From assembly GCF_019720895.1 (NCBI RefSeq), contig NZ_JAHKSH010000001.1, positions 248,001 to 312,000 of the forward strand: 64,000 nucleotides of DNA. The letters run 5' to 3'. Below are positions 10,554 through 63,481 of the stretch, in pieces. Made by a program: the position numbers and the translations under genes. The notes under the pieces were generated by a model. That model was not told where the DNA came from. It did no database searches and saw only the letters and a program-made list of their open reading frames with translations. Within the stretch, counting starts at the first letter, position 1; each line of letters starts with the position of its first letter. The DNA is from Microbacterium salitolerans. Lineage in GTDB: Bacteria; Actinomycetota; Actinomycetes; Actinomycetales; Microbacteriaceae.

Positions 10554-10575
10554 GTGAACTCAGCGTGAACTCGTG
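10554..10575 (-). promoter_or_regulatory. Putative PhoP (PHO) box upstream of the choice-of-anchor I gene
   Basis: Read on the minus strand, two GTTCAC units start 11 bases apart (plus-strand gtgaac at 10554-10559 and 10565-10570), 35 bases before the start codon. The actinobacterial PHO box is a pair of 11-bp direct repeats beginning G(G/T)TCAY. The same arrangement precedes the 5'-nucleotidase gene. Confidence 0.6.
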
Positions 10576-10691
10576 GGGCTGTGCCGTGCGACGGCTCTCT
10601 GTGGACCGCCCTCCTCGGCCGAGTGCGTGCGCAGGGCCGAGAGCACGGCGCTGCGGATCACACTTCACAGGATGACGAAGCACACGGTCGC

Positions 10692-43041: not shown

Positions 43042-43131
43042 GCCTCGAGTGTAAAGCCGAATCGCACTTGTCTTTCAAACCCAAGCGTCATACGGTTTTC
43101 TTCGACGGCACACCCGACCCGATGGAGAGTC

Positions 43132-47307: not shown

Positions 47308-49047
47308 TCACACCTCCGCGAGGTCGCGGTCGAGCGCGCGGAACTGGGCGGCGCCGATGCCCGCGCGCCCCGCGATCGTCAGCAGGCTGGCCGTCGGCGG
47401 GAGGCCGACGAGGTCGACGTCGACGAGGTCCGGCGCATGGCGCCGGACGACCTCGCGCATCCGGGCGTCGTCGAGCAGGCGCGCGAGTGGGGTCTGCATG
47501 CGCTCGGGGGCCGCCAGCTCGCTGAGGCGCGGCAGAGGATCCGTGCGGGCGAGCACGCGATCACGGTGCACGCGCGCGAGCAGGTGCTCCGGCCCGACGG
47601 CTCCCTGCGCCGGAAGACCGAGCCGTGCGAACTGGCTCGCGGGTGCGTCGTTCGCGCGCATCGCCTCGACGAGCAGCTGCGCCATCCGCAGCTCGGCTTC
47701 GTCATCGAGGAGTGGATCCACCTGGTCGGGATCCTGCGTCAGGTCGAACAGCTCCGTGCCGTGCCGCCACGAGCTCATCCAGGCCGGGCGCACGGGGATC
47801 CGCATGGTGCGGAGGCCCTTCGTGAAGGAGAACGGCTCGGCCGGCTCCCACGCGCCGAGCTCACTGGGTGCGAAGCGCGACCGCATGTGCGTGGGCATGA
47901 GAGTGAAGTCCTCGAGCGGTGCGTTGTCGGGAGCGACGGCGGAGCGCATGTAGACGTAGCGCCCGTCCGTGATGTTGACGTGGTCGCCGTGCTTGCCGAA
48001 CAGGGCGGCAGGCGGCCCGGCGGCTCTCGCGGACGAGAGCGCCATCCCCTCCATATCGGACGTCGGCTCCAGGCCGAAGAAGTCGAGCAGCGTGACGGGG
48101 ATGTCGACTGTGCGGGCGAGGCGCTCGTCGCGCGCGTCGCGGCGCCCGGTGCGCGGATCCCAGAGGTACATGGGCAGGTGGACGAGCTCGTTGTACCAGG
48201 GCTGGAAGGACTTCGCCCACCATCCGCGCTCGCCCAGCATGTATCCGTGATCGGTGTTGACGATCAGCATCGTGTCGTCCCAGAGCCCGTGTTCGTCCAT
48301 CGCGTCGAGCACGCGCCCGACCGAGTGATCGCACATCTCGAGCAGGGCGCGGTACTCCTCGCGCGCCAGCGCGACCGCGTCGTCGTCCTCGACGACGCGT
48401 CGGTACGGCGGCCAGTCTGCGACGGACTCGCCCGCGAGACCGCGCTTCTCGCGGAAGCGCTCCGCGGCGAAGAACGGCTCGTGGGGGTCGAACAGCTCGA
48501 GCTGCAGCATCCAGCGGTCGGCGTCGGCGTTCGTCTCGATGAACTCGAGCCCGGCGTCGACCGTGCGGGTCTGGGAATGGTCGGCCTCTGTCGCCATGTA
48601 GGCGCGGTTGACCTCGTCCTGCGCGTGCATGCGGTGGAGCACGTTCTCTCCGGGGTCGACGTGACCCACGACCCCCTTCCACGGGTCGCCCTCCTGTCCG
48701 CGGAAGAACTCCCACGTGCTGTAGCGCGTGTGGTAGGTCGCGCCTCCGTCCTCCCAGTAGTGCTGGTGGTCCGAGGCGAGGTGGGTGTGGATCCCCGCCT
48801 GCCCCAGCATCTCGGGCACGGAGTCGTCGAACGGCTCGAGCGGACCCCAGCTGCGGTGGAGGAAGTTGTGGCGCCCCGTGTGCATCTCGCGACGGGCGGG
48901 CATGCACGGCATGGATCCCGCGAAGAAGTTCTCGAACGCGACGGATCGCTCGGCGAGCCGGGAGAAGTTCGGCAGGTCCGCCAGCTCGTCGTACGGCGGC
49001 ACCATGCGCCGATTGAGGCTGTCGAACATCAGGATGATGGCGCGCAT
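47308..49047 (-). CDS. Sulfatase (type I, formylglycine-dependent), cytoplasmic
   Basis: A 579-residue sulfatase. Metal-binding start AIILMFDSLNRRM; formylglycine motif C48-M-P-A-R52 in GSMPCMPARREMHTGRHN; central HVDPGENV and LFDPHEPFFAAE; second metal site LIVNTDHGYMLGERGWWAK; and a C-terminal domain. It lacks a signal peptide, so it should act inside the cell on imported sulfated oligosaccharides. Its ATG overlaps the stop of the upstream sulfatase gene by one base (TGATG), so the two are co-translated. Maturation would need the formylglycine-generating enzyme encoded at 62522. Sugar specificity cannot be read from sequence. Confidence 0.9.
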   Translation of the reverse strand: MRAIILMFDSLNRRMVPPYDELADLPNFSRLAERSVAFENFFAGSMPCMPARREMHTGRHNFLHRSWGPLEPFDDSVPEMLGQAGIHTHLASDHQHYWEDGGATYHTRYSTWEFFRGQEGDPWKGVVGHVDPGENVLHRMHAQDEVNRAYMATEADHSQTRTVDAGLEFIETNADADRWMLQLELFDPHEPFFAAERFREKRGLAGESVADWPPYRRVVEDDDAVALAREEYRALLEMCDHSVGRVLDAMDEHGLWDDTMLIVNTDHGYMLGERGWWAKSFQPWYNELVHLPMYLWDPRTGRRDARDERLARTVDIPVTLLDFFGLEPTSDMEGMALSSARAAGPPAALFGKHGDHVNITDGRYVYMRSAVAPDNAPLEDFTLMPTHMRSRFAPSELGAWEPAEPFSFTKGLRTMRIPVRPAWMSSWRHGTELFDLTQDPDQVDPLLDDEAELRMAQLLVEAMRANDAPASQFARLGLPAQGAVGPEHLLARVHRDRVLARTDPLPRLSELAAPERMQTPLARLLDDARMREVVRRHAPDLVDVDLVGLPPTASLLTIAGRAGIGAAQFRALDRDLAEV

Positions 49048-50693
49048 CAGCGATTCTCCTCTGCGAGAGCGAGGTGGATCTCCTCGCTGGGGGCATAGCC
49101 GAGCCGCCACGCACCGACCCAGATGTCGGATCCCTCCGGCGGCGAGAACGGCGCGGTGTACAGGTTCCAGTGCCGGCCGTCCTGCCGCGGCGAGCCGCTC
49201 TGCTCCTCGATGTTCGTGCGCTCCCGCACCGCGCCGGGCGGCGTGGCGGTCCACCCGATCGAGGCTCCGGGTGTCGTGCACGTCACCGTCACGGCACCGC
49301 CCGTCGTGTGGACCTCGGGGGACGCCGTGGCGCGCGGGCTGCCGCCCGGTCGCCAGCGCTCGAGAAGCGCGACCTCGGAGTCGACGCCGAGATCACCGTG
49401 GGTGTCGCGCCATTCGTCGAGGGCGCGACGCAGTCGATCCCGCACGTCGCGATAGGCGGGCTCGCCGATGAGATTCGTCGTCTCGTGGGGATCCGTCTGA
49501 ATGTCGTAGAGCTCCTCCGGGGGACGCGGCACGGCGACGATCGAGCGCTGAAGGTCTGTCAGAACGGAGGGCACTTCGCCGAGCGAGAGCCGCTGACCCT
49601 CCTCGTGCACGAGCCGGCGCAGCTCCGCCCACGTGTCGAGGTGATCGGGGTAGTAGTTGTACTGCATGCCCGAGCGATCCGGGTGCAGATTGAGGGTGTA
49701 CCGGAATCGCGCGTCGCGCACGGTCCGCACGGCATCCTCCTGCGCGTCCATGCGGTCGCGCGCCCCGAATGCGTACGGCGCGGCGGGGAGGCCTGCTCCA
49801 GCGGAGTCGAACAGGGGCGTGCCGTGCATGTGCTCGGGCACCTCGAGCCCGGCGGCGGCGAGCATGGTCGGCGCGAGATCCATGGTCTGCACGACCTCGT
49901 CGCGAGCCGTCCCGGCGGGGATCCGTCCAGGCCAGCGTGCGATGAGCGGCACCCGCAGCCCCGCTTCGTTCGCCCAGCGCTTCGCCCGCGGGAAGCTCGC
50001 GCCGTGATCGCTCCAGAAGACGACGAGCGTGTCCTCGGTGAGTCCGTCCTCCTCGAGCTCGTCGAGGATCCGTCCGACCCAGGCATCCATTGCGGTGATG
50101 AGGTCGTAGTAGCGGGCCCAGGCCGTGCGGAACGGCTCGGTGTCGGGGTGGTACGGCGGGAAGCTCGTCTGGGCGGGATCCACGCGCTCGTCGTCGGCGA
50201 GGTCTGCCGTCTCGGCGGCGTACGGACCGTCTCCGTAGATCCGGGACTCGTGCGTGATCAGGCTGTGGAACGACGCGAAGAACGGAGCGCCGTCCGGCCG
50301 GTTGCGCCAGTGAGCGTTCGGCGAGCAGTCGTCGAACGCGGTCGGGGGCGTCTCGACCTGGAAGTCGGTGAACCAGTTGTTCGACGTGTAGTAGCCGGCC
50401 GCACGGAAGGTCTCGCTCACGAGACCGACCTCCTCCGGCGGGACCGCCTTGGTGCGCATGTGCATCGTGCCGATCGAGATCGGGTAGCACCCCGTCATGA
50501 TCGCGGAGCGCGCGGGCGCGCACACGGGCGCGGCGGCGAAGGCCTGATCGAAGCGCACTCCCGCGTGGGCGAGCGCGTCGATGCGCGGGGTGGAGGGCTG
50601 GTCGGCGTCGGGCCACAGGCCCTCGTAGGCCCCCAGATGCGGATTGATGTCGTGGGTCGAGATCCACACGATGTTCGGCGACGTCGTCGTCAT
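49047..50693 (-). CDS. Sulfatase (type I, formylglycine-dependent), cytoplasmic
   Basis: A 548-residue sulfatase beginning NIVWISTHDINPHLGAYEG, a divergent form of the metal-site DD motif, with formylglycine motif C58-A-P-A-R62 in APVCAPARSAIMTGCYP. Downstream landmarks are FFASFHSLITHESR, VVFWSDHGASFPRAKRWANEAG (metal/substrate site), GLRVPLIARWPGRIP and the ELYDIQTDPHETTNLIGEPAYRDV end typical of S1 sulfatases. No signal peptide. The ATG at 50693 is chosen because the conserved domain begins six residues later. It is first of a two-sulfatase minus-strand operon, divergent from the peptide/oligosaccharide ABC operon with an operator-like dyad between them. Confidence 0.92.
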   Translation of the reverse strand: MTTTSPNIVWISTHDINPHLGAYEGLWPDADQPSTPRIDALAHAGVRFDQAFAAAPVCAPARSAIMTGCYPISIGTMHMRTKAVPPEEVGLVSETFRAAGYYTSNNWFTDFQVETPPTAFDDCSPNAHWRNRPDGAPFFASFHSLITHESRIYGDGPYAAETADLADDERVDPAQTSFPPYHPDTEPFRTAWARYYDLITAMDAWVGRILDELEEDGLTEDTLVVFWSDHGASFPRAKRWANEAGLRVPLIARWPGRIPAGTARDEVVQTMDLAPTMLAAAGLEVPEHMHGTPLFDSAGAGLPAAPYAFGARDRMDAQEDAVRTVRDARFRYTLNLHPDRSGMQYNYYPDHLDTWAELRRLVHEEGQRLSLGEVPSVLTDLQRSIVAVPRPPEELYDIQTDPHETTNLIGEPAYRDVRDRLRRALDEWRDTHGDLGVDSEVALLERWRPGGSPRATASPEVHTTGGAVTVTCTTPGASIGWTATPPGAVRERTNIEEQSGSPRQDGRHWNLYTAPFSPPEGSDIWVGAWRLGYAPSEEIHLALAEENR

Positions 50694-50728
50694 GTGCGCC
50701 AGTATCCTCTCTGCCTCATTGCAAAACC

Positions 50729-50745
50729 ACTGAACAGCGTTTAGT
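50729..50745. promoter_or_regulatory. Candidate operator between divergent sulfatase and ABC operons
   Basis: Imperfect palindrome ACTGAACAGCGTTTAGT (7-base arms, one mismatch) in the 116-base divergent gap. It resembles a half of the TTCAAACGATTGAAC dyad at 58407 only weakly, so which regulator binds is open. Confidence 0.4.
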
Positions 50746-50809
50746 CTTTCACGCATCCGGTGGCGATGCAGCCCCGACCGGCCTCCACACAACGACGTCA
50801 GGAGACGCC

Positions 50810-52354
50810 ATGCGCAGAACCCGAATCATGTCCATGGCCGCGGCGACCGCCGCCGCGGCACTCACGCTGACCGCCTGCGGGGGGAGCAGCGGAGACGACG
50901 GCGGCGGCACCAGCGCCGACGGCACGGCGCCGCTGCTCTCGCTCGGCGCCCTCCTCGAACCCACGAGCTGGGATCCGGCGCAGGCGAACGAGGGGCACCT
51001 GGCTCCCATCTACCAGTCGCTGTACGACACGCTCATCAAGCGCGAGCCCGATGGGGAGCTCAGCCCGATGCTCGCGACGGAATGGTCGTGGAGCGACGAC
51101 GAGCTCGCACTCACCCTCGAGCTGCGCGACGACGTGACGTTCAGCGACGGCGTGGCGTTCGACGCCGAGGCCGTCGTGGCGAACATCGAGCACTTCCAGC
51201 AGGCGAACGGCCCCATGCTCGGCAACCTCAGCGCCGTCGAGAGCGCGGAGGCCGTCGACACGCACACGGTCGTCCTCCACCTCGCGTCTCCGGATCCCGA
51301 TCTGCCGGACAGCCTCGCGAACGCGGGCGGCTACATGGCGAGTCCCGACGCCCTCGCGGCCGGGACGATCGAGACGGAGCCCGCCGGCTCCGGCCCCTAC
51401 ACGTACGACCAGGACGGGTCCGTCGCGGGGTCGACCATCAGCTTCACGCGGACCGAGGCCTACTGGGGCGAGGATCTGCCGTACGACGAGGTCGAGTTCC
51501 AGATCCTCACGGATGAGACGGCTCGCCTCAACGCGCTGACGTCGGGACAGGTGAACTTCACGGCGCTCAACCGCGCCGCGTCGGCGCTGCAGGCGACGGG
51601 CGCCGGGCTCAACATGGAAGAGGACTTCACCGTCAACTGGGCGGGCATCCTCTTCTTCGACCGCGACGGCGCGATCCAGCCGGAGTTCGAGGACCCGCGT
51701 GTCCGTGAGGCGCTCGCGCTGGCGATCGACCGCCAGGCTCTCGTCGACGTCGGCTGGGAGGGGCTCGGCGAGACGACCTCGCAGGTGTACGGCCCGGACT
51801 CGAACGCGTACGACGAGGAGCTCGAGTCGGCCTATGAGTACGACCCGGAGCGCGCCGAGGAGCTGCTCGCCGAAGCCGGCGCCGGCGACATGACGATCAC
51901 GTTCCCCACGACGGCCGTCTTCGAACCCGTCCTCTACGACGCGATCTTCCAGAACTGGGAGGACATCGGCGTCACGGTGAAGACCGAGCAGTGGGGGCCG
52001 GGCGAGGCGATTCCGTCGATGATGCGCGGCGAGTACGCGGCCTCGTTCTTCACGCTCGCCCAGCGCTCCGACTGGGGCACCGTCAAGTTCCTCCTCGCGG
52101 AGGACGCCTCCTGGAACCCACTGGGATCGACGGACCCGGAGCTCCAGGACCTCATCGACGCCTACCCTGCCGCGTCGGAGGAGGAGCGTCCGCAGGTCGC
52201 GCGCGACATCAACACGTGGATCGTCGAGAACGACTGGTTCGCACCGATCGCCCGACCCGGCACGTTCAACCTGTGGGACGACACGGTCGACGTCGAGGTG
52301 CAGACGCGCCAGGCCGTGCCCTCGATCTACAACTTCGCGCCCGCCGGCAGCTGA
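50810..52354 (+). CDS. ABC transporter substrate-binding lipoprotein, family 5 (peptide/oligosaccharide type)
   Basis: A 514-residue lipoprotein (lipobox LTAC, C23). The SBP family 5 pattern is seen in LLEPTSWDPAQANEGHLAPIYQSLYDTLIKREPDGELSPMLATEWSW, LRDDVTFSDGVAFDAEAVVANIEH, VREALALAIDRQALVD and ELLAEAGAGDMTITFPT. Family 5 proteins usually bind peptides or nickel, but in several bacteria they bind oligosaccharides. Lying among sulfatases and GH3 genes, this one more likely carries a sulfated oligosaccharide; that is inference from context. The ribosome site caggag precedes the ATG. Confidence 0.92.
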   Translation: MRRTRIMSMAAATAAAALTLTACGGSSGDDGGGTSADGTAPLLSLGALLEPTSWDPAQANEGHLAPIYQSLYDTLIKREPDGELSPMLATEWSWSDDELALTLELRDDVTFSDGVAFDAEAVVANIEHFQQANGPMLGNLSAVESAEAVDTHTVVLHLASPDPDLPDSLANAGGYMASPDALAAGTIETEPAGSGPYTYDQDGSVAGSTISFTRTEAYWGEDLPYDEVEFQILTDETARLNALTSGQVNFTALNRAASALQATGAGLNMEEDFTVNWAGILFFDRDGAIQPEFEDPRVREALALAIDRQALVDVGWEGLGETTSQVYGPDSNAYDEELESAYEYDPERAEELLAEAGAGDMTITFPTTAVFEPVLYDAIFQNWEDIGVTVKTEQWGPGEAIPSMMRGEYAASFFTLAQRSDWGTVKFLLAEDASWNPLGSTDPELQDLIDAYPAASEEERPQVARDINTWIVENDWFAPIARPGTFNLWDDTVDVEVQTRQAVPSIYNFAPAGS

Positions 52355-52405: not shown

Positions 52406-53344
52406 ATGCGCTTTCTCGTGAAACGACTCGCGTCGGCGGTCTCGCTCCTGTTCGGGGCGACGCTGATCGTGTTCCTCCTCCTGTCGCCGGCATTCGACGA
52501 CATCGCCTTCAACGTGCTGGGCGAGAACGCCACACCCGCGCAGGCGGCCGAGCTCAACGCCGAGCTGGGGCTCGACCAGCCGCTGATCGTGCAGTACCTG
52601 CACTGGCTCGTGGGCGCACTCACCGGCGACCTCGGCGACTCGCTGTTCAGCACCGAGTCGGTGGCCGCGGCGCTCTCCGTGCGGATGCCCGTCACGGTCG
52701 CGCTCGTGATCCTCGTGACGGTCCTCAGCGGGGTGCTCGGGTTCGCGATCGGCATCGCGGCCGCGGTGAAGCGCGGGTGGCTGGACCGTGCGCTGCAGTT
52801 CATCGCGACGCTCGGCGATGCGCTTCCCGCGTTCATCATCGCGCTCTTCCTCGTGACGCTGCTCGCCATCCAGCTCGGGATCCTGCCCGCTACGGGATAC
52901 ACGGCGTTCGCCGACGACCCGGGGGCGTGGGCACGCAGCATCACGATGCCGGTGATCGCGCTCACCGTCGTCGCCGTCGCGGGCATCGCCCAGCAGGTGC
53001 GCAGCTCGATGATCGCGACGCTCCGGCAGGACTACGTGCGCACGCTGCGCAGTCGCGGTCTGTCGGAGAGGCGCGTGGTGCTCGGGCATGTGCTGCGGAA
53101 CGCATCGACGACCGGCCTGACGTCGCTCGCGGTGCAGGTCGTGGGGATCCTCGGCGGTGCCGTCGTCATCGAGCAGATCTTCGCGCTGCCTGGGCTGGGA
53201 AGCCTGGCGGTGCAGGCATCCGGTCGTGCGGACATCCAGGTCGTGCTCGGCACGGTGACCGCGTACGTCGTCATCGTCGTGATCGTCAATCTGCTGGTCG
53301 ACCTCGCCGTCGCCTGGCTGAATCCCAAGGTGCGTCTCTCATGA
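52406..53344 (+). CDS. ABC transporter permease (DppB type)
   Basis: A 312-residue permease. It starts MRFLVKRLASAVSLLFGATLIVFLLL as usual for DppB and carries AELNAELGLDQPLIVQYLHWLVGALTGDLGDSLFS, the coupling loop RQDYVRTLRSRGLSERRVVLGHVLRNASTTGLTSLAVQ, and VVIEQIFALPGLGSLAVQA. Its stop overlaps the next gene's ATG. Confidence 0.93.
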   Translation: MRFLVKRLASAVSLLFGATLIVFLLLSPAFDDIAFNVLGENATPAQAAELNAELGLDQPLIVQYLHWLVGALTGDLGDSLFSTESVAAALSVRMPVTVALVILVTVLSGVLGFAIGIAAAVKRGWLDRALQFIATLGDALPAFIIALFLVTLLAIQLGILPATGYTAFADDPGAWARSITMPVIALTVVAVAGIAQQVRSSMIATLRQDYVRTLRSRGLSERRVVLGHVLRNASTTGLTSLAVQVVGILGGAVVIEQIFALPGLGSLAVQASGRADIQVVLGTVTAYVVIVVIVNLLVDLAVAWLNPKVRLS

Positions 53345-55092
53345 GCCAGACAACGACACTCGTCACGGCCGCGCGCTCGCAGCGCGGAGGCGTGTTCCGC
53401 CGGTTCCTCCGCAACCCCCTCGGCGTCGCCTCGGCGATCGTGCTCCTGTTCCTGGTGCTCGCCGCGCTCGCCGCCCCGTTCCTCTCGCTGCCCGACCCCG
53501 GCGTCGCGAACCTGCGCGAGGCGCTCGAGGGGTCGAGCGACGTCCACCTGCTCGGCACCGACTCCTCGGGGCGCGATGTGCTGAGCCGCCTCCTGTGGGG
53601 CGCGCAGATCAATCTCGCCGGGGCGGCGCTCGCGCTCGTCGTCGCGGTGGCCGTGGGGCTGCCGACAGGACTGATCGCCGGCTACTACGGCGGCTGGTTC
53701 GACAGCGTCGCGAACTGGTTCACGAACCTGAACATGGCTCTCCCGGGCATCGTCGTCCTGCTCGCGGTGCGCGCCGTCGTCGGCCCGTCGGTGTGGACGT
53801 CGATGGCCGTCTTCGGCGTGCTCCTCTCGCCGTCCGTCTTCCGCATCGTCCGGGCGGCGGTCCAGTCGGTCCGCGGCGAGCTGTACGTCGACGCCGCGCG
53901 CGTCTCGGGGCTCGGTGACGCGCGCATCATCGGCCGTCACGTGCTCACGGTCGTCCGCGCGCCGGTCATCATCCAGACGGCGCGCCTCGCGAGCATCGCG
54001 ATCGCGATCCAGGCGGGACTCGAGTTCCTGGGGCTCTCCGACGCCTCGGTCCCGTCGTGGGGAAGCATGCTGAACGAGGGATTCCGGCGCATCTTCGTCA
54101 ATCCGTCGCTGGTGTTCTGGCCGAGCCTCGCGATCGGCCTCACGACGATGGCCCTCATCCTTCTCGGCAACGCCATGCGCGATGCCCTCGAAGACCGCGG
54201 ATCCGGTGCCGCCACGCGCGTCGGGCGCACCGAGCGCGTCGATGCGCCCGCCGAAGGGCGCTCGCCGCTGCTGTCGGTGCGCGACCTCGAGGTCAGCTAC
54301 GGCGTCGGCGACGAGCAGAAGACCGTCGTCCACCAGGTGAGCCTGGATGTCGCGCCCGGGGAGGTGCTCGGTCTCGTCGGCGAATCCGGATCCGGGAAGT
54401 CGCAGACCGCGTTCTCGGTGCTGGGACTTCTGCCCGAGGGCGGGTGGGTGTCGCGCGGGTCCCTCCTGTTCGAGGGTCGTGAGCTCACGGAGCTCGCTCC
54501 GGGGCAGCGCCGTCGGCTGCGGGGCGACGGCATCGCATACGTGCCCCAGGAGCCGCTGAGCAACCTCGACCCGTCCTACCGCATCGGCGCCCAGCTCACG
54601 GAGCCCCTGCGTGCGGCGCGGGGCATGTCGCGCCAGGCCGCGCGCGAGCGGGCTCTCGAGCTCCTCGCCCGCGTCGGCATCCCCGACCCCGAGGCGACCT
54701 TCCGGTCCTACCCCCACGAGATCTCCGGAGGGATGGCGCAGCGCGTCCTCATCGCCGGCGCCGTGGCGGGCGAGCCCAAGCTCCTGATCGCCGATGAGCC
54801 CACCACGGCGCTCGACGTGACGGTGCAGGCGGAGGTGCTCGACCTGCTCCGCGACCTCCGCAGGGAGTCGGGCATGGGCGTGCTGCTCGTGACGCACAAC
54901 TTCGGCGTCGTCGCCGACGTCTGCGATCGCGTCGCGGTCATGCAGGCGGGCCGAATCGTCGAGACCGGCGACGTCGAGGACATCCTCGAGCGCCCCCGTG
55001 AGGACTACACCCGAACGCTGCTCGACTCGATGCTCGAGGCCGGCGGCGACGTGCGCGTCTACCAGGACGCCGCGGAAGGAGGAGCGTCATGA
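53341..55092 (+). CDS. Fused ABC permease (DppC type) and ATP-binding protein (DppD type)
   Basis: A 583-residue single chain. Residues 1 to about 290 are a DppC permease (NPLGVASAIVLLFLVLAALAAP, LLGTDSSGRDVLSRLLWGAQ, coupling loop ELYVDAARVSGLGDARIIGRHVLTVV, GSMLNEGFRRIF). After a short linker rich in charged residues, residues about 308-583 are a DppD ATPase: Walker A GESGSGKSQ near 346, PQEPLSNLDPSYRIG, signature EISGGMAQRVLIAGAV, Walker B LLIADEPTTALDVT. Permease-ATPase fusions of this kind occur in actinobacterial peptide systems but are less common than separate subunits. It is coupled at both ends to its neighbours. Confidence 0.92.
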   Translation: MSQTTTLVTAARSQRGGVFRRFLRNPLGVASAIVLLFLVLAALAAPFLSLPDPGVANLREALEGSSDVHLLGTDSSGRDVLSRLLWGAQINLAGAALALVVAVAVGLPTGLIAGYYGGWFDSVANWFTNLNMALPGIVVLLAVRAVVGPSVWTSMAVFGVLLSPSVFRIVRAAVQSVRGELYVDAARVSGLGDARIIGRHVLTVVRAPVIIQTARLASIAIAIQAGLEFLGLSDASVPSWGSMLNEGFRRIFVNPSLVFWPSLAIGLTTMALILLGNAMRDALEDRGSGAATRVGRTERVDAPAEGRSPLLSVRDLEVSYGVGDEQKTVVHQVSLDVAPGEVLGLVGESGSGKSQTAFSVLGLLPEGGWVSRGSLLFEGRELTELAPGQRRRLRGDGIAYVPQEPLSNLDPSYRIGAQLTEPLRAARGMSRQAARERALELLARVGIPDPEATFRSYPHEISGGMAQRVLIAGAVAGEPKLLIADEPTTALDVTVQAEVLDLLRDLRRESGMGVLLVTHNFGVVADVCDRVAVMQAGRIVETGDVEDILERPREDYTRTLLDSMLEAGGDVRVYQDAAEGGAS

Positions 55093-55925
55093 CCGCGTCG
55101 ACACCCCTGCTGCGCATCGAGGATCTCGAGGTCGTCTACAAGGGCAGGGGAGGCACGAGGTTCCAGGCGCTCAACGGCGTCTCGCTCGACATCCGCCCGG
55201 GAGAGACCGTCGGCCTCGTCGGCGAATCGGGGTCGGGGAAGACGACGATCGGCCGCGCGGTCCTCGGCCTCGCGCCGATCAGCGCCGGCCGCGTCGAGTT
55301 CGACGGGCGCGACATCACGCACGCGTCGACCCGCGACAGGCGCTCTCTCGCGCAGGACATCCAGGTCGTGTTCCAGGATCCCTACTCGTCCCTGAACCCG
55401 TCGATGACCGTCGCCGACATCCTCGCCGAGCCGCTCCTCATCCAGGGGTGGTCGCGCCACGATGCCTATGCCCGCGTGCGCGACCTCCTGGATCGCGTGC
55501 AGCTGCCATCGGACGCGTCGTCGCGCCTGCCGCGTGAGTTCTCGGGTGGGCAGCGTCAGCGCGTCGCCATCGCACGGGCGATCGCCTTGGATCCGAGGCT
55601 CATCATCTGCGACGAGCCGGTGTCCGCTCTCGACCTCACCACGCAGGCCCGCGTGCTCGAGCTGCTCGTCGAGCTGCAGGAGTCGACGGGAGCGGCGTAC
55701 CTGTTCGTCTCGCACGACCTCGGCGTCGTGCGACACATCAGTCATCGGGTCACGGTGCTCTACCGGGGTGACATCGTAGAACAGGGCGAGGTCGACCAGG
55801 TCACGGCCCATCCCGAGCATCCCTACACGCAGAAGCTGTTCATGTCGGCGCCGGTGGCCGATGTCGCGCAGCAGAGGGAGCGTCGCGAGCGTCGCCGTCT
55901 GCTGGCGGCGGGAGGAGAGAAATGA
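55089..55925 (+). CDS. ABC transporter ATP-binding protein (DppF type)
   Basis: A 278-residue ATPase with Walker A GESGSGKTT, Q-loop VVFQDPYSSLNPSMTVADILAEPLL, signature EFSGGQRQRVAIARAIALDP and Walker B LIICDEPVSALDLT. It ends with the oligopeptide-type tail HPEHPYTQKLFMSAP, somewhat short for the family (usually about 300-330). It starts within the fusion gene's stop and ends within the start of the GH3-TetR gene (ATGA), tying that unusual protein into the transporter operon. Confidence 0.93.
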   Translation: MTASTPLLRIEDLEVVYKGRGGTRFQALNGVSLDIRPGETVGLVGESGSGKTTIGRAVLGLAPISAGRVEFDGRDITHASTRDRRSLAQDIQVVFQDPYSSLNPSMTVADILAEPLLIQGWSRHDAYARVRDLLDRVQLPSDASSRLPREFSGGQRQRVAIARAIALDPRLIICDEPVSALDLTTQARVLELLVELQESTGAAYLFVSHDLGVVRHISHRVTVLYRGDIVEQGEVDQVTAHPEHPYTQKLFMSAPVADVAQQRERRERRRLLAAGGEK

Positions 55926-58390
55926 ACATGACGACACGGGCGGCCGATTCTGCGGTGGCGGAGCACGCGGACGGCACGAGCTACCGCGATCTCAACGGCA
56001 ACGGGGTCATGGATCCGTATGAGGATCCGAGGCGCTCCGTGGATGAGCGCGTCGACGACCTCGTCCCGCGACTGAGTCTTCGGGAGAAGGCTGGCCTGAT
56101 GGTCCAGTCCGTCGTCCCCGTGACGGCCGACGGCACCGTGGACGGACCGCCGATCGTCGAGCGACAGCTGACCGCGCGCCACCTCGTCGAGGAGCGACTC
56201 GTGACGCACCTCAACGTGCACAGCATCCCCGAGCCGCGGGTCATGGCGCGGTGGGTCAACGAGGTCCAGCGGCTCGCCGCGCTCGGGCCCCACGGGATCC
56301 CCGTGACCATCTCGACGGATCCGCGGCACTCGTTCACCGAGAACTTCGGCGCCTCGTTCTCTTCTGATCATCTCTCGGCGTGGCCGGAACCGCTCGGTCT
56401 CGGGGCTCTCGCCGACGAGACAGCCGTGCGCGAGTTCGCCGACATCGCCCGCCGCGAGTATCTCGCCCTCGGGATCCGCATGGCGCTGCATCCGACGCTC
56501 GACGTCGCGACGGAGCCGCGCTGGCCTCGGCAGTACAGCACCTTCGGCCAGAACGCAGAGCTCGTCGGGCGTCTCGGACTCGCCTATCTGGACGGCTTCG
56601 AGAACGGGCAGGGCGTCACGCCCGACGGGATCGCGTGCATGGCGAAGCACTTCCCCGGCGGCGGGCCGCAGCGGGGCGGCGAGGATCCGCACTTCCCGTA
56701 CGGGCGGGAGCAGGACTATCCGGGCGGCATGTTCGAGTACCACCTCGAGCCCTTCCGTCGCGTGATCGAGCGCGGCGTTCCGGCGATCATGCCGTCCTAC
56801 GGCGTGCCGGTCGGCCTCGAGCTCGGCGGCGAGCCGGTCGAGGAGGTCGGCTTCGGCTACAACCGTCAGATGATCACGGGGCTCCTCCGCGAGGAGCTCG
56901 GCTTCGACGGCGTCATCTGCACCGACTGGGGTCTCGTGACGGAGTCGCGAATCCTCGACAAGACCCTTCCGCCGCGCGCATGGGGAGTCGAGCACCTCGA
57001 CGAGGAGGCGCGCGTGCGCCGGATCATCGAGGCAGGATGCGATCAGCTCGGCGGCGAGGACCGTCCCGACCTCATCGTGTCGCTCGTCGAGTCGGGCCGG
57101 ATCGACGAGTCGACGATCGACCGCTCCGTGCGTCGTCTTCTTCGCGTCAAGTTCGAGCTCGGCCTGTTCGACGACCCCTACGTCGACGAAGACGCAGCGG
57201 CCCGCGAGGTCGGCACGAAGGAGTTCGTCGAGGCCGGGCATCGCGCGCAGGCGCGCTCGATGGTCGTGCTCTCGGCCGGTCGCCGGTCGGCCTCGACGCT
57301 GCCGCTCGCGAAGGGCATCGCCGTGTACTCGGACGAGGTGAGCGACGAGGCCCTGGTCGAGGCCGGGTTCCGCGCCGCAGCCGCCCCGGAGGACGCCGAT
57401 GCGATCGTCGTGCGCACCGAGGCCCCCTACGAGCCGCGGGACACATACATGCTCGAGGCCAGCTTCCACGCCGGATCCCTCGAGTTCTCGCCCGAGTTCG
57501 AGCATCGGCTCCGGGCATACCGCGCGCTCGCACCCGTGGTCCTCGCGGTGCGACTCGATCGCCCGGCGATCCTCGAGCCGCTCATCCCGCATGTCTCTGC
57601 CGCCGTCGCCGAGTTCGGCGCATCCGATCGTGCGCTTCTCGAGGTCCTGACGGGGCAGTCGCGCGCAGAGGGCTCGCTGCCGTTCGACGTCCCGCGGTCG
57701 ATGTCGGCGATCGAGGTCTCTCGACCCGACGTCCCGGGCGACACTGTCCGCCCGCTGCTGGTCGAAGGCCAGGCGAGCGCGGCGGTCGCCCGGCGCGCGG
57801 GGCGGCGCGTGTACTCCCAGGGGCGTGAGAGCCGCGAGCTGATCCTCGAGACCGCGCTCGCCGTGATCGAGCGGAAGGGCTACAGCGCGACCTCGCTGCG
57901 CGACATCGCGGCCGAGGTCGGGATGACGCAAGCCGGCCTGCTCCACCATTTCGGGACGAAGGAGAATCTCCTCGTCGAGGTGCTGCAGCAGCGCGACATC
58001 GTGGATCGGCGCGACCTCGCCCTCATGCCGGGCGACGAGCCCATGACGATCCGAACGGCCCGTCACAACGTCGAGGTGCCGGGTCTCGTGCACCTCTATG
58101 TGAGTCTCGAGGCCGCCGCGGCGGATCAGGATCACCCCGCCAACGAGTTCTTCCGAGAGCGCGAGCGCGACGTCATCGCCGCCGTGCGTCGCGACGTCGA
58201 GGCGCGGCAGCGCACGGGGAGATTCCGCGCCGACGTGGATCCGGCCATGGTCGCCCGCGTCCTCCTGGCCGTGTCCGACGGGCTGCAGGCGCAGTGGGAG
58301 ATCAATCGCGACGCGGTGGACCTTCCGGGGACGATCGAGTGGCTCTGGCACGAGCTCGCGGGCGACGCGGCGGACACGGCCGCCGACTGA
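55922..58390 (+). CDS. GH3 glycoside hydrolase fused to a TetR-type DNA-binding regulator
   Basis: An 822-residue single reading frame joining an enzyme to a repressor. Residues 1 to about 610 are GH3: the N-terminal extension YRDLNGNGVMDPYEDP, SLREKAGLMVQS, TDPRHSFTENFG, the substrate region CMAKHFPGGGPQRGGEDPHFPYGR, nucleophile D335 in GVICTDWGLV, and a second domain ending in LPFDVPRSMSAIEVSRPDVPGDTVRPL, where free-standing homologues would finish with an FRFGHGL-type end. From about 620 a complete TetR protein follows: RRVYSQGRESRELILETALAVIERKGYSATSLRDIAAEVGMTQAGLLHHFGTKENLL, then EVPGLVHLYVSLEAAAADQDHPANEFFRERERDV. No frameshift signature is seen at the junction. It is co-translated with the ABC ATPase. 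A strong dyad lies 17 bases past its stop, a likely target of its own TetR part. An internal GTG near 57809 could make free TetR. Confidence 0.88.
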   Translation: MNMTTRAADSAVAEHADGTSYRDLNGNGVMDPYEDPRRSVDERVDDLVPRLSLREKAGLMVQSVVPVTADGTVDGPPIVERQLTARHLVEERLVTHLNVHSIPEPRVMARWVNEVQRLAALGPHGIPVTISTDPRHSFTENFGASFSSDHLSAWPEPLGLGALADETAVREFADIARREYLALGIRMALHPTLDVATEPRWPRQYSTFGQNAELVGRLGLAYLDGFENGQGVTPDGIACMAKHFPGGGPQRGGEDPHFPYGREQDYPGGMFEYHLEPFRRVIERGVPAIMPSYGVPVGLELGGEPVEEVGFGYNRQMITGLLREELGFDGVICTDWGLVTESRILDKTLPPRAWGVEHLDEEARVRRIIEAGCDQLGGEDRPDLIVSLVESGRIDESTIDRSVRRLLRVKFELGLFDDPYVDEDAAAREVGTKEFVEAGHRAQARSMVVLSAGRRSASTLPLAKGIAVYSDEVSDEALVEAGFRAAAAPEDADAIVVRTEAPYEPRDTYMLEASFHAGSLEFSPEFEHRLRAYRALAPVVLAVRLDRPAILEPLIPHVSAAVAEFGASDRALLEVLTGQSRAEGSLPFDVPRSMSAIEVSRPDVPGDTVRPLLVEGQASAAVARRAGRRVYSQGRESRELILETALAVIERKGYSATSLRDIAAEVGMTQAGLLHHFGTKENLLVEVLQQRDIVDRRDLALMPGDEPMTIRTARHNVEVPGLVHLYVSLEAAAADQDHPANEFFRERERDVIAAVRRDVEARQRTGRFRADVDPAMVARVLLAVSDGLQAQWEINRDAVDLPGTIEWLWHELAGDAADTAAD

Positions 58391-58406: not shown

Positions 58407-58443
58407 GTTCAATCGTTTGAATGTTTGTTTCAAACGATTGAAC
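58407..58443. promoter_or_regulatory. Strong operator-like palindrome upstream of the GPH symporter gene
   Basis: 15-base perfect arms gttcaatcgtttgaa (58407-58421) and ttcaaacgattgaac (58429-58443) with a 7-base AT-rich spacer, in the 111-base gap between the GH3-TetR stop and the GPH start. Each arm is itself a partial dyad (ttcaaa/tttgaa). This suits binding by two TetR dimers or by the LacI protein encoded next door. It is the most AT-rich stretch nearby and probably covers the promoter of the GPH-lacI-sulfatase-FGE operon. Confidence 0.8.
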
Positions 58444-58501: not shown

Positions 58502-59932
58502 GTGACTCGCACACCGGAGACCAGCCTGACCACGGCGCTCACGACCGCGCGCCCGTTCGGTTGGCGCGACCGCGTCGGCTACCTGTTCGGCGACCTCGGG
58601 AACGACTTCCTCTTCCTGCTCGCCTCGTCGTACCTGATGATCTACTTCACCGACGTCGCCGGCCTCCAGGCAGGTCACGTCGGGCTGCTGTTCCTCCTGA
58701 CGCGTCTGCTCGACGCGTTCACCGACGTCGGATGGGGGCGCTTCCTCGACTCCCACCGTCCGTCGAAGAACGGCCGCTTCCGCCCGTGGATCCTGCGGGC
58801 CGCTGTGCCGCTCGCGATCATGAGCGCGCTGATGTACGCGCCATTCGTCGCCGACTGGGCGTACGGAGCGAAGCTGACGTACGCGGTCGTCACCTACGTG
58901 CTGTGGGGATCCGTCTTCTACACGATGGTCAACATCTCGTACGGATCCCTGGCCTCCGTCATCACACCGGACCCCGGCCAGCGATCGTCGCTGTCGGTGT
59001 TCCGCGGCGTGGGCGCCAACGTCGCGGGCATCTTCGTCGCGCTCGTGCCGCCGCTCATCATCTACGGCACGGTCGACGGCGTCTCGACCGTGCTCCCCGG
59101 CGCGTTCTTCGGCATCGGGATCGCGTTCGGGGCGGCCGCGATCGTCTACTACGTGATCTGCTACCGACTCACCAGCGAGCGCGTGAAGGCGCCGCCCCGC
59201 GAGCGGGCGAGCTTCCCGCAGCTGCTCCGCTCGCTCGTGACGAATCGCGCGCTCCTCGGGCTCATGGTGTCGAACCTGATCCTCATGCTGGCGGGCCTGC
59301 TCGTGAACGCGATGGCGGCCTATCTCTGGCTCAACTACTTCAACAACGGCGCCCTGTCCGGGCCCGCGCAGCTGGCGAGCTTCGTGCCCGGGCTCCTGCT
59401 CGCCCCGTTCGCCGCCGCTCTGGCCCGAAAGATCGGCAAGCGCGAGTTCATCGCCGGCATGCTCGTCCTCAGCGCGGCCGTCTTCTTCCTCATGTTCGTG
59501 CTCCACGTCACGTCGCCGTGGGCGTTCATCGTGCTGTCGGTCGTCGCCGGGTTCGGCGTCGGGACGTACAACCTGCTGGTGTGGGCCGTGATCGCCGACG
59601 TCGTCGACTTCGAGGAGGTCCGCACGGGGGAGCGCGACGACGGCACGGTGTATGCGATCAACACGTGGGCGCGGAAGCTGGGCTTCGCCATCGCGGGCGG
59701 TGCGGGCGGCATCGCGCTGGGCCTCGTCGGCTACCAGGAGGGCGGCGTGCAGCAGACGGCAGAGACGATCGACGGCATATACACGATCTCGACGCTCGTG
59801 CCGGCCGTGCTCTATGGGGTCGCGGCGATCCTGCTGCTCACCTGGTATCCGCTGAGCCGTCGCCGCGTCGCCGAGAACGTCGAGGTGCTCGCGGCGCGTC
59901 ACGCGGCGCAGACCGGATCCGCGCAGGACTGA
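58502..59932 (+). CDS. GPH-family glycoside:cation symporter (MelB-like)
   Basis: A 476-residue transporter with 12 predicted helices. GPH features are RDRVGYLFGDLGNDFLFLLASSYLMIYFTDVAG at helix 1, LTRLLDAFTDVGWGRFLDSHRPSKNGRFRPWIL (the conserved cation-site Asp and R-x-K-x-GRFRPW region), GSLASVITPDPGQRSSLSVFRG, and VWAVIADVVDFEEVRTGERDDGTVYAINTWARKLG in the second half. Family members import oligosaccharides or glycosides with Na+ or H+. The ribosome site aaggagg lies just before a GTG start at 58502. It is first in an operon with LacI, sulfatase and FGE. Confidence 0.92.
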   Translation: MTRTPETSLTTALTTARPFGWRDRVGYLFGDLGNDFLFLLASSYLMIYFTDVAGLQAGHVGLLFLLTRLLDAFTDVGWGRFLDSHRPSKNGRFRPWILRAAVPLAIMSALMYAPFVADWAYGAKLTYAVVTYVLWGSVFYTMVNISYGSLASVITPDPGQRSSLSVFRGVGANVAGIFVALVPPLIIYGTVDGVSTVLPGAFFGIGIAFGAAAIVYYVICYRLTSERVKAPPRERASFPQLLRSLVTNRALLGLMVSNLILMLAGLLVNAMAAYLWLNYFNNGALSGPAQLASFVPGLLLAPFAAALARKIGKREFIAGMLVLSAAVFFLMFVLHVTSPWAFIVLSVVAGFGVGTYNLLVWAVIADVVDFEEVRTGERDDGTVYAINTWARKLGFAIAGGAGGIALGLVGYQEGGVQQTAETIDGIYTISTLVPAVLYGVAAILLLTWYPLSRRRVAENVEVLAARHAAQTGSAQD

Positions 59933-59935
59933 TCC

Positions 59936-60967
59936 ATGAACCGTCCCACCCTCCGCGATGTCGCCGAACGCGCCGGCGTCTCCGTCTCGGCGGTGTCCTA
60001 CGCCCTGAACGAGAACAGCGACTTCCCGCTCGCCGAGCGCACGCGCGCGCGGATCCGCCGCATCGCCCGCGAGATCGGCTATGTGCCGAACTCCCTCGCC
60101 CGGTCGCTGCGTCAGCGCGCCGCGCGACTGATCGGCGTCATCCTCGACAAGCCGCTCACCTACCCGCGCTATGCGGCGATCGCCGAAGGACTGAGCGAGG
60201 GCGTCGCGGACGAGGGATATCAGCTCATGTTCCTCGCGACGCGCGACCACCAGGCGGGAGTCGACGCGGTGCGCGGCGGGCAGCTCGACGGGCTCGTCTT
60301 CGTCGGCCACGACGACCACGCGGTGCCCGACGACCTCGCGCGCGCCGTCGCAGAGCACGAGATCCCCTTCGGTGCGATCGACTGCGGCCACGCCGTGGGC
60401 GACGTGCCCTACTCGACCGTCGACTTCGACTACGCGCACGGCGTGCACCTGGTGATCGAGCACCTCGTCGCAGAGGGGGTGCAGACGGTGCACTACGTGC
60501 GCCCCGAGATCGTCTCGCACGCCGAGCGCGTGCGCGAGCAGGCGATGTTCCACGAGCTCGCGGCGCGACCGGACGTCGCGATCCATGTCCTCCAGACAGC
60601 GATCACGTCCGAATCGCTCGCCGAGATCGAGAGCTCGCGCGAAGACACGGGCTACCGCCGGGATCTGGCCCGCCGGGTCGACGCGCTGCTCGAGAAGAGC
60701 CGCACGGCACCCGCCGACACGGCCTTCGTGTGCTCGTGGGGAGCCGACGTCGAGACCGTGTTCGCGACCGCGCGCTCCCGCGATCCGCAGTACCGCGTCG
60801 TCGGGCTGGCGGCCGGCGCCCTGGACCCTGCCCAGTGGGACGGCCTCAGCAGCGCCGACCTGCCGCTCGTCGAGGGCGGGCGCGTCTGCGCCCGACTCGT
60901 CGTCGCGACCGCACGCGACGGATCCGCCCCCGACCATCTCCTGCTCGCCCCGACGCTCGTCGGCTGA
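59936..60967 (+). CDS. LacI-family transcriptional regulator
   Basis: A 343-residue repressor with helix-turn-helix TLRDVAERAGVSVSAVSYALNENSDFPLAERTRARIRRIAREIGYVPNSLARSLR at 5-58 and a sensor domain (LIGVILDKPLTYPRYAAIAEGLSEGVADEGYQLMFLAT, DGLVFVGHDDHAVP, STVDFDYAHGVHLVIEHLVAEG). It follows the GPH gene by 3 bases. The palindrome at 58407 is a candidate site for it or for the TetR half of the upstream fusion. The inducer is presumably a desulfated or sulfated sugar handled by this locus. Confidence 0.9.
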   Translation: MNRPTLRDVAERAGVSVSAVSYALNENSDFPLAERTRARIRRIAREIGYVPNSLARSLRQRAARLIGVILDKPLTYPRYAAIAEGLSEGVADEGYQLMFLATRDHQAGVDAVRGGQLDGLVFVGHDDHAVPDDLARAVAEHEIPFGAIDCGHAVGDVPYSTVDFDYAHGVHLVIEHLVAEGVQTVHYVRPEIVSHAERVREQAMFHELAARPDVAIHVLQTAITSESLAEIESSREDTGYRRDLARRVDALLEKSRTAPADTAFVCSWGADVETVFATARSRDPQYRVVGLAAGALDPAQWDGLSSADLPLVEGGRVCARLVVATARDGSAPDHLLLAPTLVG

Positions 60968-60997
60968 GCACGGCCCCCGAAGGAACGAGGAGTCACG

Positions 60998-62503
60998 TTG
61001 ACCCGCCCCAACATCATCTTCATCATGTCGGACGACCATGCCGCCCACGCCATCTCGGCGTACGGCAGCCGCGTCAACCACACGCCGCACCTCGATCGGA
61101 TCGCCGATCAGGGCATGCGCATGGACGCCGTGTTCTGCACGAACTCCATCTGCAGCCCCTCGCGGGCATCGATCCTCACGGGCACGTACAGTCACGTCAA
61201 CGGCGTCTCGTCTATCTGGACCGAGATGGACTACCGCGTGCCGACGTTCATCGACGCGCTCCGCGGCACGGGCTACAAGACGGGCATGTTCGGCAAGTGG
61301 CATCTCGGCGAGCACGGCGTCTCGCAGCCGCGCGGCTTCGACGCGTGGAAGATCTTCCCCGGGCAGGGCGACTACGTCGACCCCGAGATGATCGACGAGC
61401 AGGGGAGCCACACGGTGCCGGGGTACGCGACCGACATCGTCACCGACCTGACGCTCGACTGGATCGACGAGGTTGGCGACGCCCCGTTCGTCGCGATGGT
61501 GCATCACAAGGCCCCGCACCGCCCGTGGATCCCCGACGAGAAGCACAAGCACCTCTACGCCGACGGATCCATCCCCGAGCCCGAGACGTTCTTCGACGAC
61601 TACGCGACGCGCAGCAGGGCCGTGCAGAACGTGCACATGACGCTCGCCGACGACATGGGCGCCGACGACCTCAAGCAGGAGGTTCCCGCGCACCTGCGCG
61701 GCGAGGAGAACCGCGAGGCGCGGATGCGCTGGAAGTACCAGATCTACATGCGCGACTACCTGCAGACCGTGCAGTCGATCGACGACAACGTCGGGCGCCT
61801 GCTCGATCACCTCGACGCGCGCGGCCTCGCCGAGAATACGCTCGTCGTCTACACCTCCGACCAGGGCTTCTTCCTCGGCGACCACGGCTGGTTCGACAAG
61901 CGGCTGATGTTCGACCAGTCGCTGCAGATGCCGATGCTCATGCGGTGGCCCGCGGAGATCGCGGCCGGGTCGCGGTGCGAGGGCATCATCACCAACGTCG
62001 ACTTCGCGGCGACGTTCCTCGACATCGCGGGGCTGGACCCCGCGGAGGCGCTGCCGACGTCGCAGGGGCGCAGCTTCCGCCCGCTGCTGCGCGGCGAGGA
62101 GGTCGCCGACTGGCCCGACGCCGCGTACTACCGCTACTGGGAGCACGACGACCCCATTCACGGCGCCCCCGCCCACTACGGGATCCGCACGGCCGACCAC
62201 AAGCTCATCTACTACTACGGCGCGGGGCTCGGCGTGCCCGGAGCGTCGGACGCCGTGTTCGAGCCCGAATGGGAGCTGTACGACCTGAAGGCCGACCCGA
62301 CCGAGGTGCGCAATGTCGCCGACGACCCGGCGTACGCGGGTGTCCGTGCGGATCTCGAGAAGAAGCTGGCCGCGTACCAGGAGCGCTACGACGACGAGCC
62401 CTATCGCGGCGACGAGACCCCGCGCCCCGAGTGGGGTCCGTACGACGCCGAGCTCTTCGCCCGTGTCGAGGCGTACGTCGCGAAGATCCGGCAGACGAGC
62501 TGA
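60998..62503 (+). CDS. Sulfatase (type I, formylglycine-dependent), cytoplasmic
   Basis: A 501-residue sulfatase with all hallmarks: NIIFIMSDDHAAHAISAYG metal site, formylglycine motif C52-S-P-S-R56 in SICSPSRASILTGTYSH, FGKWHLGEHG, VAMVHHKAPHRPW, YTSDQGFFLGDHGWFDKRLMFDQS and the ELYDLKADPTEVRNVADDPAY end. Of the three sulfatases here it is the closest to the classical S1 consensus. No signal peptide is seen. The start is a TTG at 60998 with gaggag 8 bases upstream, a rare but supported choice because the conserved domain begins at residue 3. FGE follows directly. Confidence 0.92.
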   Translation: MTRPNIIFIMSDDHAAHAISAYGSRVNHTPHLDRIADQGMRMDAVFCTNSICSPSRASILTGTYSHVNGVSSIWTEMDYRVPTFIDALRGTGYKTGMFGKWHLGEHGVSQPRGFDAWKIFPGQGDYVDPEMIDEQGSHTVPGYATDIVTDLTLDWIDEVGDAPFVAMVHHKAPHRPWIPDEKHKHLYADGSIPEPETFFDDYATRSRAVQNVHMTLADDMGADDLKQEVPAHLRGEENREARMRWKYQIYMRDYLQTVQSIDDNVGRLLDHLDARGLAENTLVVYTSDQGFFLGDHGWFDKRLMFDQSLQMPMLMRWPAEIAAGSRCEGIITNVDFAATFLDIAGLDPAEALPTSQGRSFRPLLRGEEVADWPDAAYYRYWEHDDPIHGAPAHYGIRTADHKLIYYYGAGLGVPGASDAVFEPEWELYDLKADPTEVRNVADDPAYAGVRADLEKKLAAYQERYDDEPYRGDETPRPEWGPYDAELFARVEAYVAKIRQTS

Positions 62504-62521
62504 TCTGCCAGAGTGGCCCCC

Positions 62522-63481
62522 ATGGGAACTGAGAGCTGCACGTGCGGATGCGGCGGGCCGTCGCGCGACTCGCTGCTGCAGGTCGGCCGGCCGCCGGCCG
62601 CGCCGCAGAGCAGGAGCGAGCCCGGGGGCCACACGATCGAGCAGGCCCGCGTGCCCGCGGGATCCTTCCTCATGGGAGATCAGTCGGGTGACCGCAACCC
62701 GGGCGATGGCGAGCTTCCCGTACACGAGGTGCGCCTCGACGCGTTCTCGATCGACGCGACGACCGTCACGAACGATGCCTTCGCGGCGTTCGTCGACGCG
62801 ACGGGATATCGCACGGAAGCCGAGACGTTCGAGTTCTCCGCCGTGTTCCACCTCGCGCTGACGGCGCCCGACGAGGACGTGCTCGGCGTGCCACCGCAGA
62901 CGCCCTGGTGGCGCGGCGTCCGCGGTGCCGACTGGCGCCGCCCGGGCGGCGCCGGATCCTCGATCGACGGCCTGGGCGACCACCCCGTCGTGCATGTCAG
63001 CTGGAACGACGCCGTCGCCTACTGCGAGTGGGCGGGGCGCCGCCTCCCGACCGAGGCCGAGTGGGAGTATGCGGCCCGCGGCGGGATCGCGGGGGCGAAG
63101 TACCCGTGGGGCGACGCGGAGGTCGACGCGGGCGGCTGGCGCGCGAACATCTTCCAGGGATCCTTCCCTCGCGAGAACACGCTCGAGGACGGATTCCTCA
63201 CCACCGCACCCGTGCGCACGTTCGAGCCCAACGGGTACGGCCTGTGGCAGCCCGTCGGCAACGTGTGGGAGTGGTGTGCGGACTGGTTCGACCCGCGCAC
63301 CTACGCGGCGTCACCCGCCGAGAACCCGACGGGCCCCGAGCGCGGCGGGGCGCGGATCCTCCGTGGGGGCAGCTACCTCTGCCACATCTCGTACTGCAAC
63401 CGCTACCGCAACGCGGCCCGCTCGCAGAACACCCCCGACTCCTCGATGGGCAACGCCGGCTTCCGCACCGTCGCGCGGTAG
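62522..63481 (+). CDS. Formylglycine-generating enzyme (SUMF1/FGE family)
   Basis: A 319-residue enzyme that oxidises the CxPxR cysteine of sulfatases to formylglycine, using oxygen and copper. It has the FGE fold markers VPAGSFLMGDQSGDRNPGDGELPVHEVRL, TNDAFAAFVDATGYRTEAE, HPVVHVSWNDAVAYCEWAGRRLPTEAEWEYAARGG, GNVWEWCADWF and the active-site pair C287 and C292 in RGGSYLCHISYCNRYRNAARSQNTPDS. Both cysteines of the copper site are present, so it should be active. The N terminus has an extra CTCGCGG cluster. A GTG at 62513 is an alternative start. It is encoded right after a sulfatase and can serve all three in the locus. Confidence 0.95.
   Translation: MGTESCTCGCGGPSRDSLLQVGRPPAAPQSRSEPGGHTIEQARVPAGSFLMGDQSGDRNPGDGELPVHEVRLDAFSIDATTVTNDAFAAFVDATGYRTEAETFEFSAVFHLALTAPDEDVLGVPPQTPWWRGVRGADWRRPGGAGSSIDGLGDHPVVHVSWNDAVAYCEWAGRRLPTEAEWEYAARGGIAGAKYPWGDAEVDAGGWRANIFQGSFPRENTLEDGFLTTAPVRTFEPNGYGLWQPVGNVWEWCADWFDPRTYAASPAENPTGPERGGARILRGGSYLCHISYCNRYRNAARSQNTPDSSMGNAGFRTVAR

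Follow-up and report, generated by a model that had tools for sequence, protein, structure and literature searches.

What would a cell gain from a single protein that is both a sugar-cleaving enzyme and a transcriptional repressor? This question is raised by a 64,000-nucleotide stretch of the Microbacterium salitolerans genome (contig NZ_JAHKSH010000001.1, positions 248,001 to 312,000; hereafter the window), in which one uninterrupted 822-codon frame starting with ATG (55922–58390, plus strand) joins a glycosidase of glycoside hydrolase family 3 (GH3) to a TetR-type regulator. The gene shares the ATGA at 55922–55925 with the ATPase gene upstream. A model reading of the sequence, below called the original prediction, had correctly described this single frame and given its product as 88 kDa; the mass of the 822 residues computes to 90.3 kDa. 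Our analysis favours, with a probability of roughly 0.7, a bifunctional protein that would act both as a GH3 glycosidase and as autorepressor of its own glycoside-import operon.

Full-length, stop-free copies of the fusion were found in eight of 367 genomes of the genus (the window genome G000 as well as G043, G223, G334, G364, G440, G096 and G082), the seven others being 77–69% identical to the window copy. A scan of GTDB contigs, which took the best 80 of 125 relatives from 594 stretches and makes the occurrences named here a lower bound, revealed at least one further copy with a frame open across both parts, in the Candidatus Agrococcus pullicola metagenome-assembled genome (MAG) DXDC01000170.1 (locus L099). 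Wider, overlapping samples of 198 relatives, 398 genomes of the family and 297 of the order, the latter two drawn evenly, not exhaustively, and searched at E limits of 1e-150 and 1e-200, listed no full-length fusion beyond the eight. Averaged over the 28 pairs of the eight fused copies, the ratio of nonsynonymous to synonymous change (pN/pS) was 0.27 in the N-terminal and 0.43 in the C-terminal GH3 domain, 0.43 in the linker, 0.15, the lowest value, in the DNA-binding part of TetR and 0.35 in the TetR C-terminal part, and these values point to purifying selection on all parts of the fusion. Given its presence in eight genomes of the genus and in L099, with pN/pS below 0.45 in every part, the GH3-TetR fusion is, by these comparisons, real, conserved and selected. 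The search in related genomes that the original prediction had proposed thus returned the fusion, and its conclusion that this is no simple sequencing frameshift is supported by nine genomes carrying the same frame.

The GH3 part (residues 16–617; 55967–57772) has two domains and had been described as lacking its normal C-terminal end. In Pfam, Glyco_hydro_3 matched residues 89–409 with 136.6 bits (cut-off 27) and Glyco_hydro_3_C, at residues 484–599, fell short with 23.2 bits (cut-off 31); an NCBIfam scan of the fusion protein returned no family at or above its cut-off. The tails of unfused homologues end, for example, in '...DPLFAFGHGLGL' (L016), followed by some variable residues, and the fused proteins run on in register with them ('...DTVRPLFVAGQPSAPV' in G043), the Arg-rich linker beginning only afterwards; in the alignment, 'RPLLVEGQAS' of the fusion lies in register with unfused tails such as 'DPLFAFGHGL'. 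An AlphaFold2 model of the whole protein built from 35 sequences (mean predicted local distance difference test score, pLDDT, 85.3) folded both GH3 domains and the TetR helices, with disorder at residues 625–633 and low confidence also in short GH3 loops (e.g. 134–147 and 200–204). Using Foldseek, the GH3 part matched the solved GH3 structure 9ul7 over its full length (601 residues, template modelling score TMt 0.94, 53% identity). A lost GH3 C-terminus was rejected on the in-register alignment of the tails, and the full-length match to 9ul7 likewise speaks against the earlier claim: by alignment and model, the C-terminal end is not missing and the GH3 half appears whole. In 41 unfused GH3s, 187 positions show no more than one exception; 164 of these are invariant in all eight fused proteins and the other 23 vary in at least one of the eight. 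D335 (in the motif ICTDWG), which we take to be the nucleophile, and K242 and H243, whose roles are likewise presumed, are kept in all eight and near-invariant in the 41 unfused proteins. The GH3 half is therefore apparently an intact glycosidase.

A flexible, Arg-rich linker of about 15 residues (residues 618–634; 57773–57823; pLDDT below 50 at 625–633) leads into the TetR part (residues 635–813; 57824–58360), which is all-helical and, as originally claimed, complete. TetR_N was detected at residues 641–687 (57842–57982) with 56.1 bits against a cut-off of 24, and TetR_C_6 at residues 732–804 remained below its own cut-off. Modelled alone, the TetR half gave a pLDDT of 90.6 and ten helices. 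All 50 PDB matches listed for it are transcriptional regulators, most of them named as TetR family and GusR (6ayh) included; the top matches are TetR-type, with moderate scores (TMq 0.42–0.73, E about 1e-5 to 1e-4). The DNA-recognition part has changed little. The TetR half is predicted to be an intact TetR repressor.

Where would this repressor bind? A 17-bp palindrome, ACTGAACAGCGTTTAGT (50729–50745, plus strand), lies 5.2 kb upstream of the fusion gene, over the putative promoter of its operon, and is the sole exact match to the pattern ACTGAAYNNNRTTYAGT in the genome. It sits between and over the boxes of a putative promoter, TTGCAA-N17-TAGTCT (50719–50747, plus strand). The same form of the site occurs in 15 of the 16 loci with a fusion or a GH3/tetR gene pair, ahead of either the first operon gene or GH3: before the operon of the ATP-binding cassette (ABC) importer described below in G000, G043, G223, G334, G364, G440, G096 and G314, directly before the fusion gene in G082, and directly before the unfused GH3-tetR genes in G238 and in the five pairs with an 8-nt overlap. 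Of 15 aligned sites, 14 have a TAGTNT box, resembling a −10 element, that overlaps the right arm; the left arm usually has a TTGC-type −35-like box ahead of it. Genus-wide, ACTGAAYNNNRTTYAGT is present in 17 of 367 genomes, namely 15 of the 16 with fusion or pair and two of the 351 others (Fisher p 1.3e-23). Thirteen of the 15 have a single copy, G238 has one site that reads on both strands, and G096 has two separate sites; in the two other genomes, G227 and G351, one site lies within an open reading frame and one at the start of an open reading frame. The sixteenth genome, G079, which has no exact match, carries ACTGATTCTGATTTAGC between its tetR and solute-binding protein (SBP) genes. Across these genomes the palindrome is thus seen to track the TetR, fused or not, and ACTGAAYNNNRTTYAGT is the likely operator of the TetR half.

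The operon headed by this site suggests what the enzyme acts on. Family scans assigned its plus-strand genes to an SBP_bac_5 solute-binding protein, the first gene (50810–52354), an ABC permease of the BPD_transp_1 family (52406–53344), a permease fused to an ATPase (53341–55092) and an ABC ATPase (55089–55925). In seven of the eight fused loci, and in the visible part of L099, the fusion directly follows such an importer, and a sulfatase gene diverges from the SBP gene in six of the seven importer-linked loci. In the window this sulfatase (49047–50693, minus strand) is taken to start at ATG 50693, 35 nt from the operator; its frame is open from TTG 50792, and a start there would place the operator inside the sulfatase gene. 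In G096 an additional sulfatase-like gene (27% to SulfB) lies between the divergent sulfatase and the SBP gene, each gap with its own copy of the site. Downstream in the window (60998–63481) lie another sulfatase and a sulfatase-activating gene of the formylglycine-generating enzyme (FGE) type. In G043, G223, G440 and G082 a cupin resembling gentisate dioxygenase begins 8–21 nt after the fusion, and genes for an FAA hydrolase, a maleylpyruvate isomerase of the mycothiol type and a flavin reductase come next (the family scans used the G223 copies); in L099 the cupin is visible before the contig ends. From this context we infer that the operon serves uptake and cleavage of a beta-glycoside, possibly sulfated and aromatic.

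Sister genomes record how the two genes may have been joined. In five of them (G373, G421, G270, G015 and G232) separate GH3 and tetR genes overlap by 8 nt (ATGCGTGA), tetR being in the +1 frame; the overlap is TGATG in G314 and ATGA in G238, and in G079 tetR stands at the head of the operon. Measured between the anchors DVPG in GH3 and QGRES in TetR, the junction spans 90 nt in seven of the eight fused genes (84 in G082) and in L099, and 91 nt in four of the five 8-nt-overlap pairs (97 in G015), which places TetR in frame 0 in all eight fusions and in frame +1 in all five pairs. A net shift of −1 nt thus joined the genes, mostly without other change in length, and most simply the fusion would have arisen from a GH3/tetR pair by such a one-base shift. 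In a GH3 tree of 49 rows the eight fused proteins group together (support in the Shimodaira–Hasegawa-like approximate likelihood ratio test, SH-aLRT, 86), their sister group being the five 8-nt-overlap pairs (99), within a tetR-associated clade of 16 (100), and one change is the fewest needed. A single fusion event appears simplest.

The idea of the original prediction that a GH3/tetR gene pair had fused stands as to the kind of origin, given the overlapping pairs of sister species; the pair that it named, at 42466 and 43 kb of the window, is not the parent. The free TetR at 42466–43041, said to resemble the TetR half closely, is merely 39–41% identical to it, compared with 56–58% for the five paired TetRs. 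The neighbouring GH3 has an Fn3-like domain, and its alignment with the fused GH3 is confined to residues 117–339 of the latter, at 26% identity. This pair was rejected as parent since closer unfused relatives exist and its GH3 is only distantly similar. In the window (42466–45399) that tetR is divergent from this other kind of GH3, and the TetR there probably uses another site because the one place in the genome that matches the fusion-operator pattern exactly lies elsewhere. In G061 (L039) and G108 (L038), GH3 and tetR lie in one frame with TAG and a few codons between them and are two genes, no fusion; they make up another, more distantly related GH3-tetR pair of the genus, a single stop codon short of a further fusion. 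At L014, L015, L018, L020, L023, L024 and L028, an unfused GH3 often overlaps or abuts a downstream gene with a LacI-like start (RRPTVYDVA, read from the printed DNA), so that the overlap of GH3 and regulator recurs with another regulator family.

A second palindromic element lies just 3′ of the fusion gene, and this dyad (58407–58443) had been proposed as the fusion's binding site. It is a double quasi-palindrome, TTCAATCGTTTGAA-N7-TTCAAACGATTGAA (58408–58442), and the genome's only place that matches TTCAANCGNTTGAA within one mismatch. The dyad was found in two of the 16 fusion or pair loci, G000 and G043, each time before a group of major facilitator superfamily (MFS), lacI and sulfatase genes, and in G043 it is separated from the fusion by 3.1 kb with other genes. 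Confined to MFS-lacI loci and distant from the fusion in one of them, it was rejected as the fusion operator. With its central CG and flanking AA/TT the dyad resembles operators of the LacI family, and 59936–60967 encodes a LacI regulator; the dyad is probably the operator of this regulator, not of the fusion. Behind it, the window (58502–63481) encodes an MFS sugar transporter, the LacI regulator, a sulfatase and the FGE-type activator, likely a LacI-controlled operon for sulfated glycosides.

How would the fusion protein work? The ABC importer would bring in the beta-glycoside, possibly sulfated and aromatic. In its absence two chains would pair through their TetR halves, each with its GH3 enzyme attached, bind ACTGAAYNNNRTTYAGT and shut off their own operon, comprising the importer, GH3-TetR itself and the gentisate-type ring-cleavage genes that some species have; the divergent sulfatase would probably be included. 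The glycoside, or the aglycone freed by GH3, would bind the TetR half and lift repression. Fusion would fix enzyme and repressor at 1:1 and place the regulator where substrate and product peak. A further step, which we put forward tentatively and consider rather doubtful, is a self-sensing hydrolase in which GH3 would either hand its product to the tethered TetR in cis or take its substrate away from it, so that turnover would set repression of the operon for import and degradation, as a one-chain circuit of the GusR/GusA type.

Several observations weigh against this bifunctional autorepressor or parts of it. The role of the operator is deduced from its pattern: ACTGAACAGCGTTTAGT was first spotted by eye, a scan for palindromes with 8-nt arms is silent there, and the pattern was derived from the window, which partly builds in its fixed ends. 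The cupin scores 257 against a curated gentisate dioxygenase cut-off of 442. Its homology changes frame in G440, a sign of either a broken copy or a sequencing slip, and G096 (L042, about 10567–10650) retains a remnant of about 25 cupin codons right after the fusion, which suggests loss of the downstream pathway. G000, G334 and G364 lack neighbouring ring-cleavage genes, and a search of the G000 genome returned no ring-cleavage homologue elsewhere, an empty answer that is not conclusive; together with the below-cut-off cupin, this makes the idea of an aromatic inducer weak for the window's species. As to the history, the TetR tree needs one state change and is poorly resolved with long branches. 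In a combined tree of 17 rows, the eight fused copies other than G082 (L099 included) group with supports of 100/99, all nine form one clade with only 58/42, and placing G082 among the unfused pairs instead passes the approximately unbiased test (p-AU 0.46). With G082 so weakly placed, there may have been two fusion events, or one fusion and one re-split, in place of a single fusion. Furthermore, GTG codons ahead of the TetR part in five of the eight fusions and in L099 make internal initiation possible there.

This last point bears on whether the chain is kept whole. A free TetR could still be made by internal initiation, for instance at GTG 57809 just ahead of the TetR part in the window, or by proteolysis of the disordered, Arg-rich linker; in the five fusions and L099, one or more GTG codons lie in the roughly 25 codons ahead of this part. 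However, no in-frame ATG, GTG or TTG occurs in G440 and G096 from the GH3 body to the Met beside the recognition helix, and the sole candidate in G082 is a GTG in TetR helix 1, where a start would cut the DNA-binding domain, so that a full free TetR is not startable at a common codon in these three. Since GTG positions are also not common to all copies, we regard a free TetR as unlikely. A different objection is that the tether is neutral, a one-base slip having fused the genes while the halves act like their separate ancestors, with 1:1 production as the sole effect. We give this even odds, and it is compatible with most of the preferred reading. It would explain a linker with only three of 16 positions invariant, the same operator in the five unfused sister pairs and the little-altered DNA-recognition part. 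Set against it are the preservation of the frame and a near-constant linker length in nine diverged genomes and the absence of re-splitting among the eight firmly grouped copies.

The remaining alternatives carry far less weight. Enzyme-derived sensors are known in general, and the GH3 part might have become a glycoside sensor for TetR, an enzyme no more; we consider this improbable because the presumed catalytic and substrate residues are retained in all eight fused proteins and the next-best GH3 in the window genome is only 32% identical to the fused one, so that no close paralogue has taken over. The earlier version of events, in which the pair at 42466 fused and acts on the 58407–58443 dyad, draws on the 39–41% TetR similarity and on the dyad adjoining the fusion gene in the window; with the unfused TetRs closer, a GH3 of a different kind and a dyad tied to MFS-lacI, it is barely credible. 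Loss of one base relative to the gene pair would also give the picture of a fusion if a sequencing or assembly error masked a stop or frameshift, a practically negligible prospect when nine assemblies whose codons have diverged share the in-frame junction and pN/pS is low across the linker.

The proposed GH3-TetR bifunctional protein comes with a natural before/after pair, overlapping genes and one gene whose junctions differ by a net single base, and with a candidate operator that is the only copy, or almost the only one, in each genome. Together these make the consequences of welding an enzyme to its repressor, regulatory change or neutrality, directly testable. The fusion may also give engineers a glycoside sensor already built into a single chain.

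Enzyme–regulator fusions or trigger enzymes such as PutA and BirA combine catalysis with control of their own operon in one chain, as proposed here, and the architecture of the fusion fits a trigger enzyme. PutA and BirA differ in their enzyme and DNA-binding families; in the present case TetR has been joined by a traceable gene fusion. The best precedent for the fusion circuit is GusR, and the hydrolase family of its partner GusA differs from GH3. GusR is a TetR-type repressor of an enterobacterial glycosidase-transporter operon with the GusA beta-glucuronidase and is induced by glucuronides (PMC9881133). The likeness lies in a TetR-type repressor over a glycosidase-transporter operon, and GusR (6ayh) itself was matched when the fold of the TetR half was compared with solved structures; in contrast to the one-chain fusion, GusR and GusA are two separate proteins with a glucuronide substrate. 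The closest solved relative of the GH3 half, 9ul7, is a GH3 beta-glucosidase of Clavibacter michiganensis (PMC13021860) and is without a TetR part. SN243 (PDB 7qe1 and others), the second-closest solved GH3, is best on p-nitrophenyl (pNP)-beta-glucuronide and weak on pNP-Glc and pNP-Xyl (PMC9730296); it has about 27% identity, about 740 residues and no regulator. Among the open-licence PMC papers listed by searches aimed at GH3-TetR or other TetR-enzyme fusions, no title or abstract opening describes such a fusion. Enzyme–regulator fusions as such are already known, and GH3-TetR is a new combination among them.

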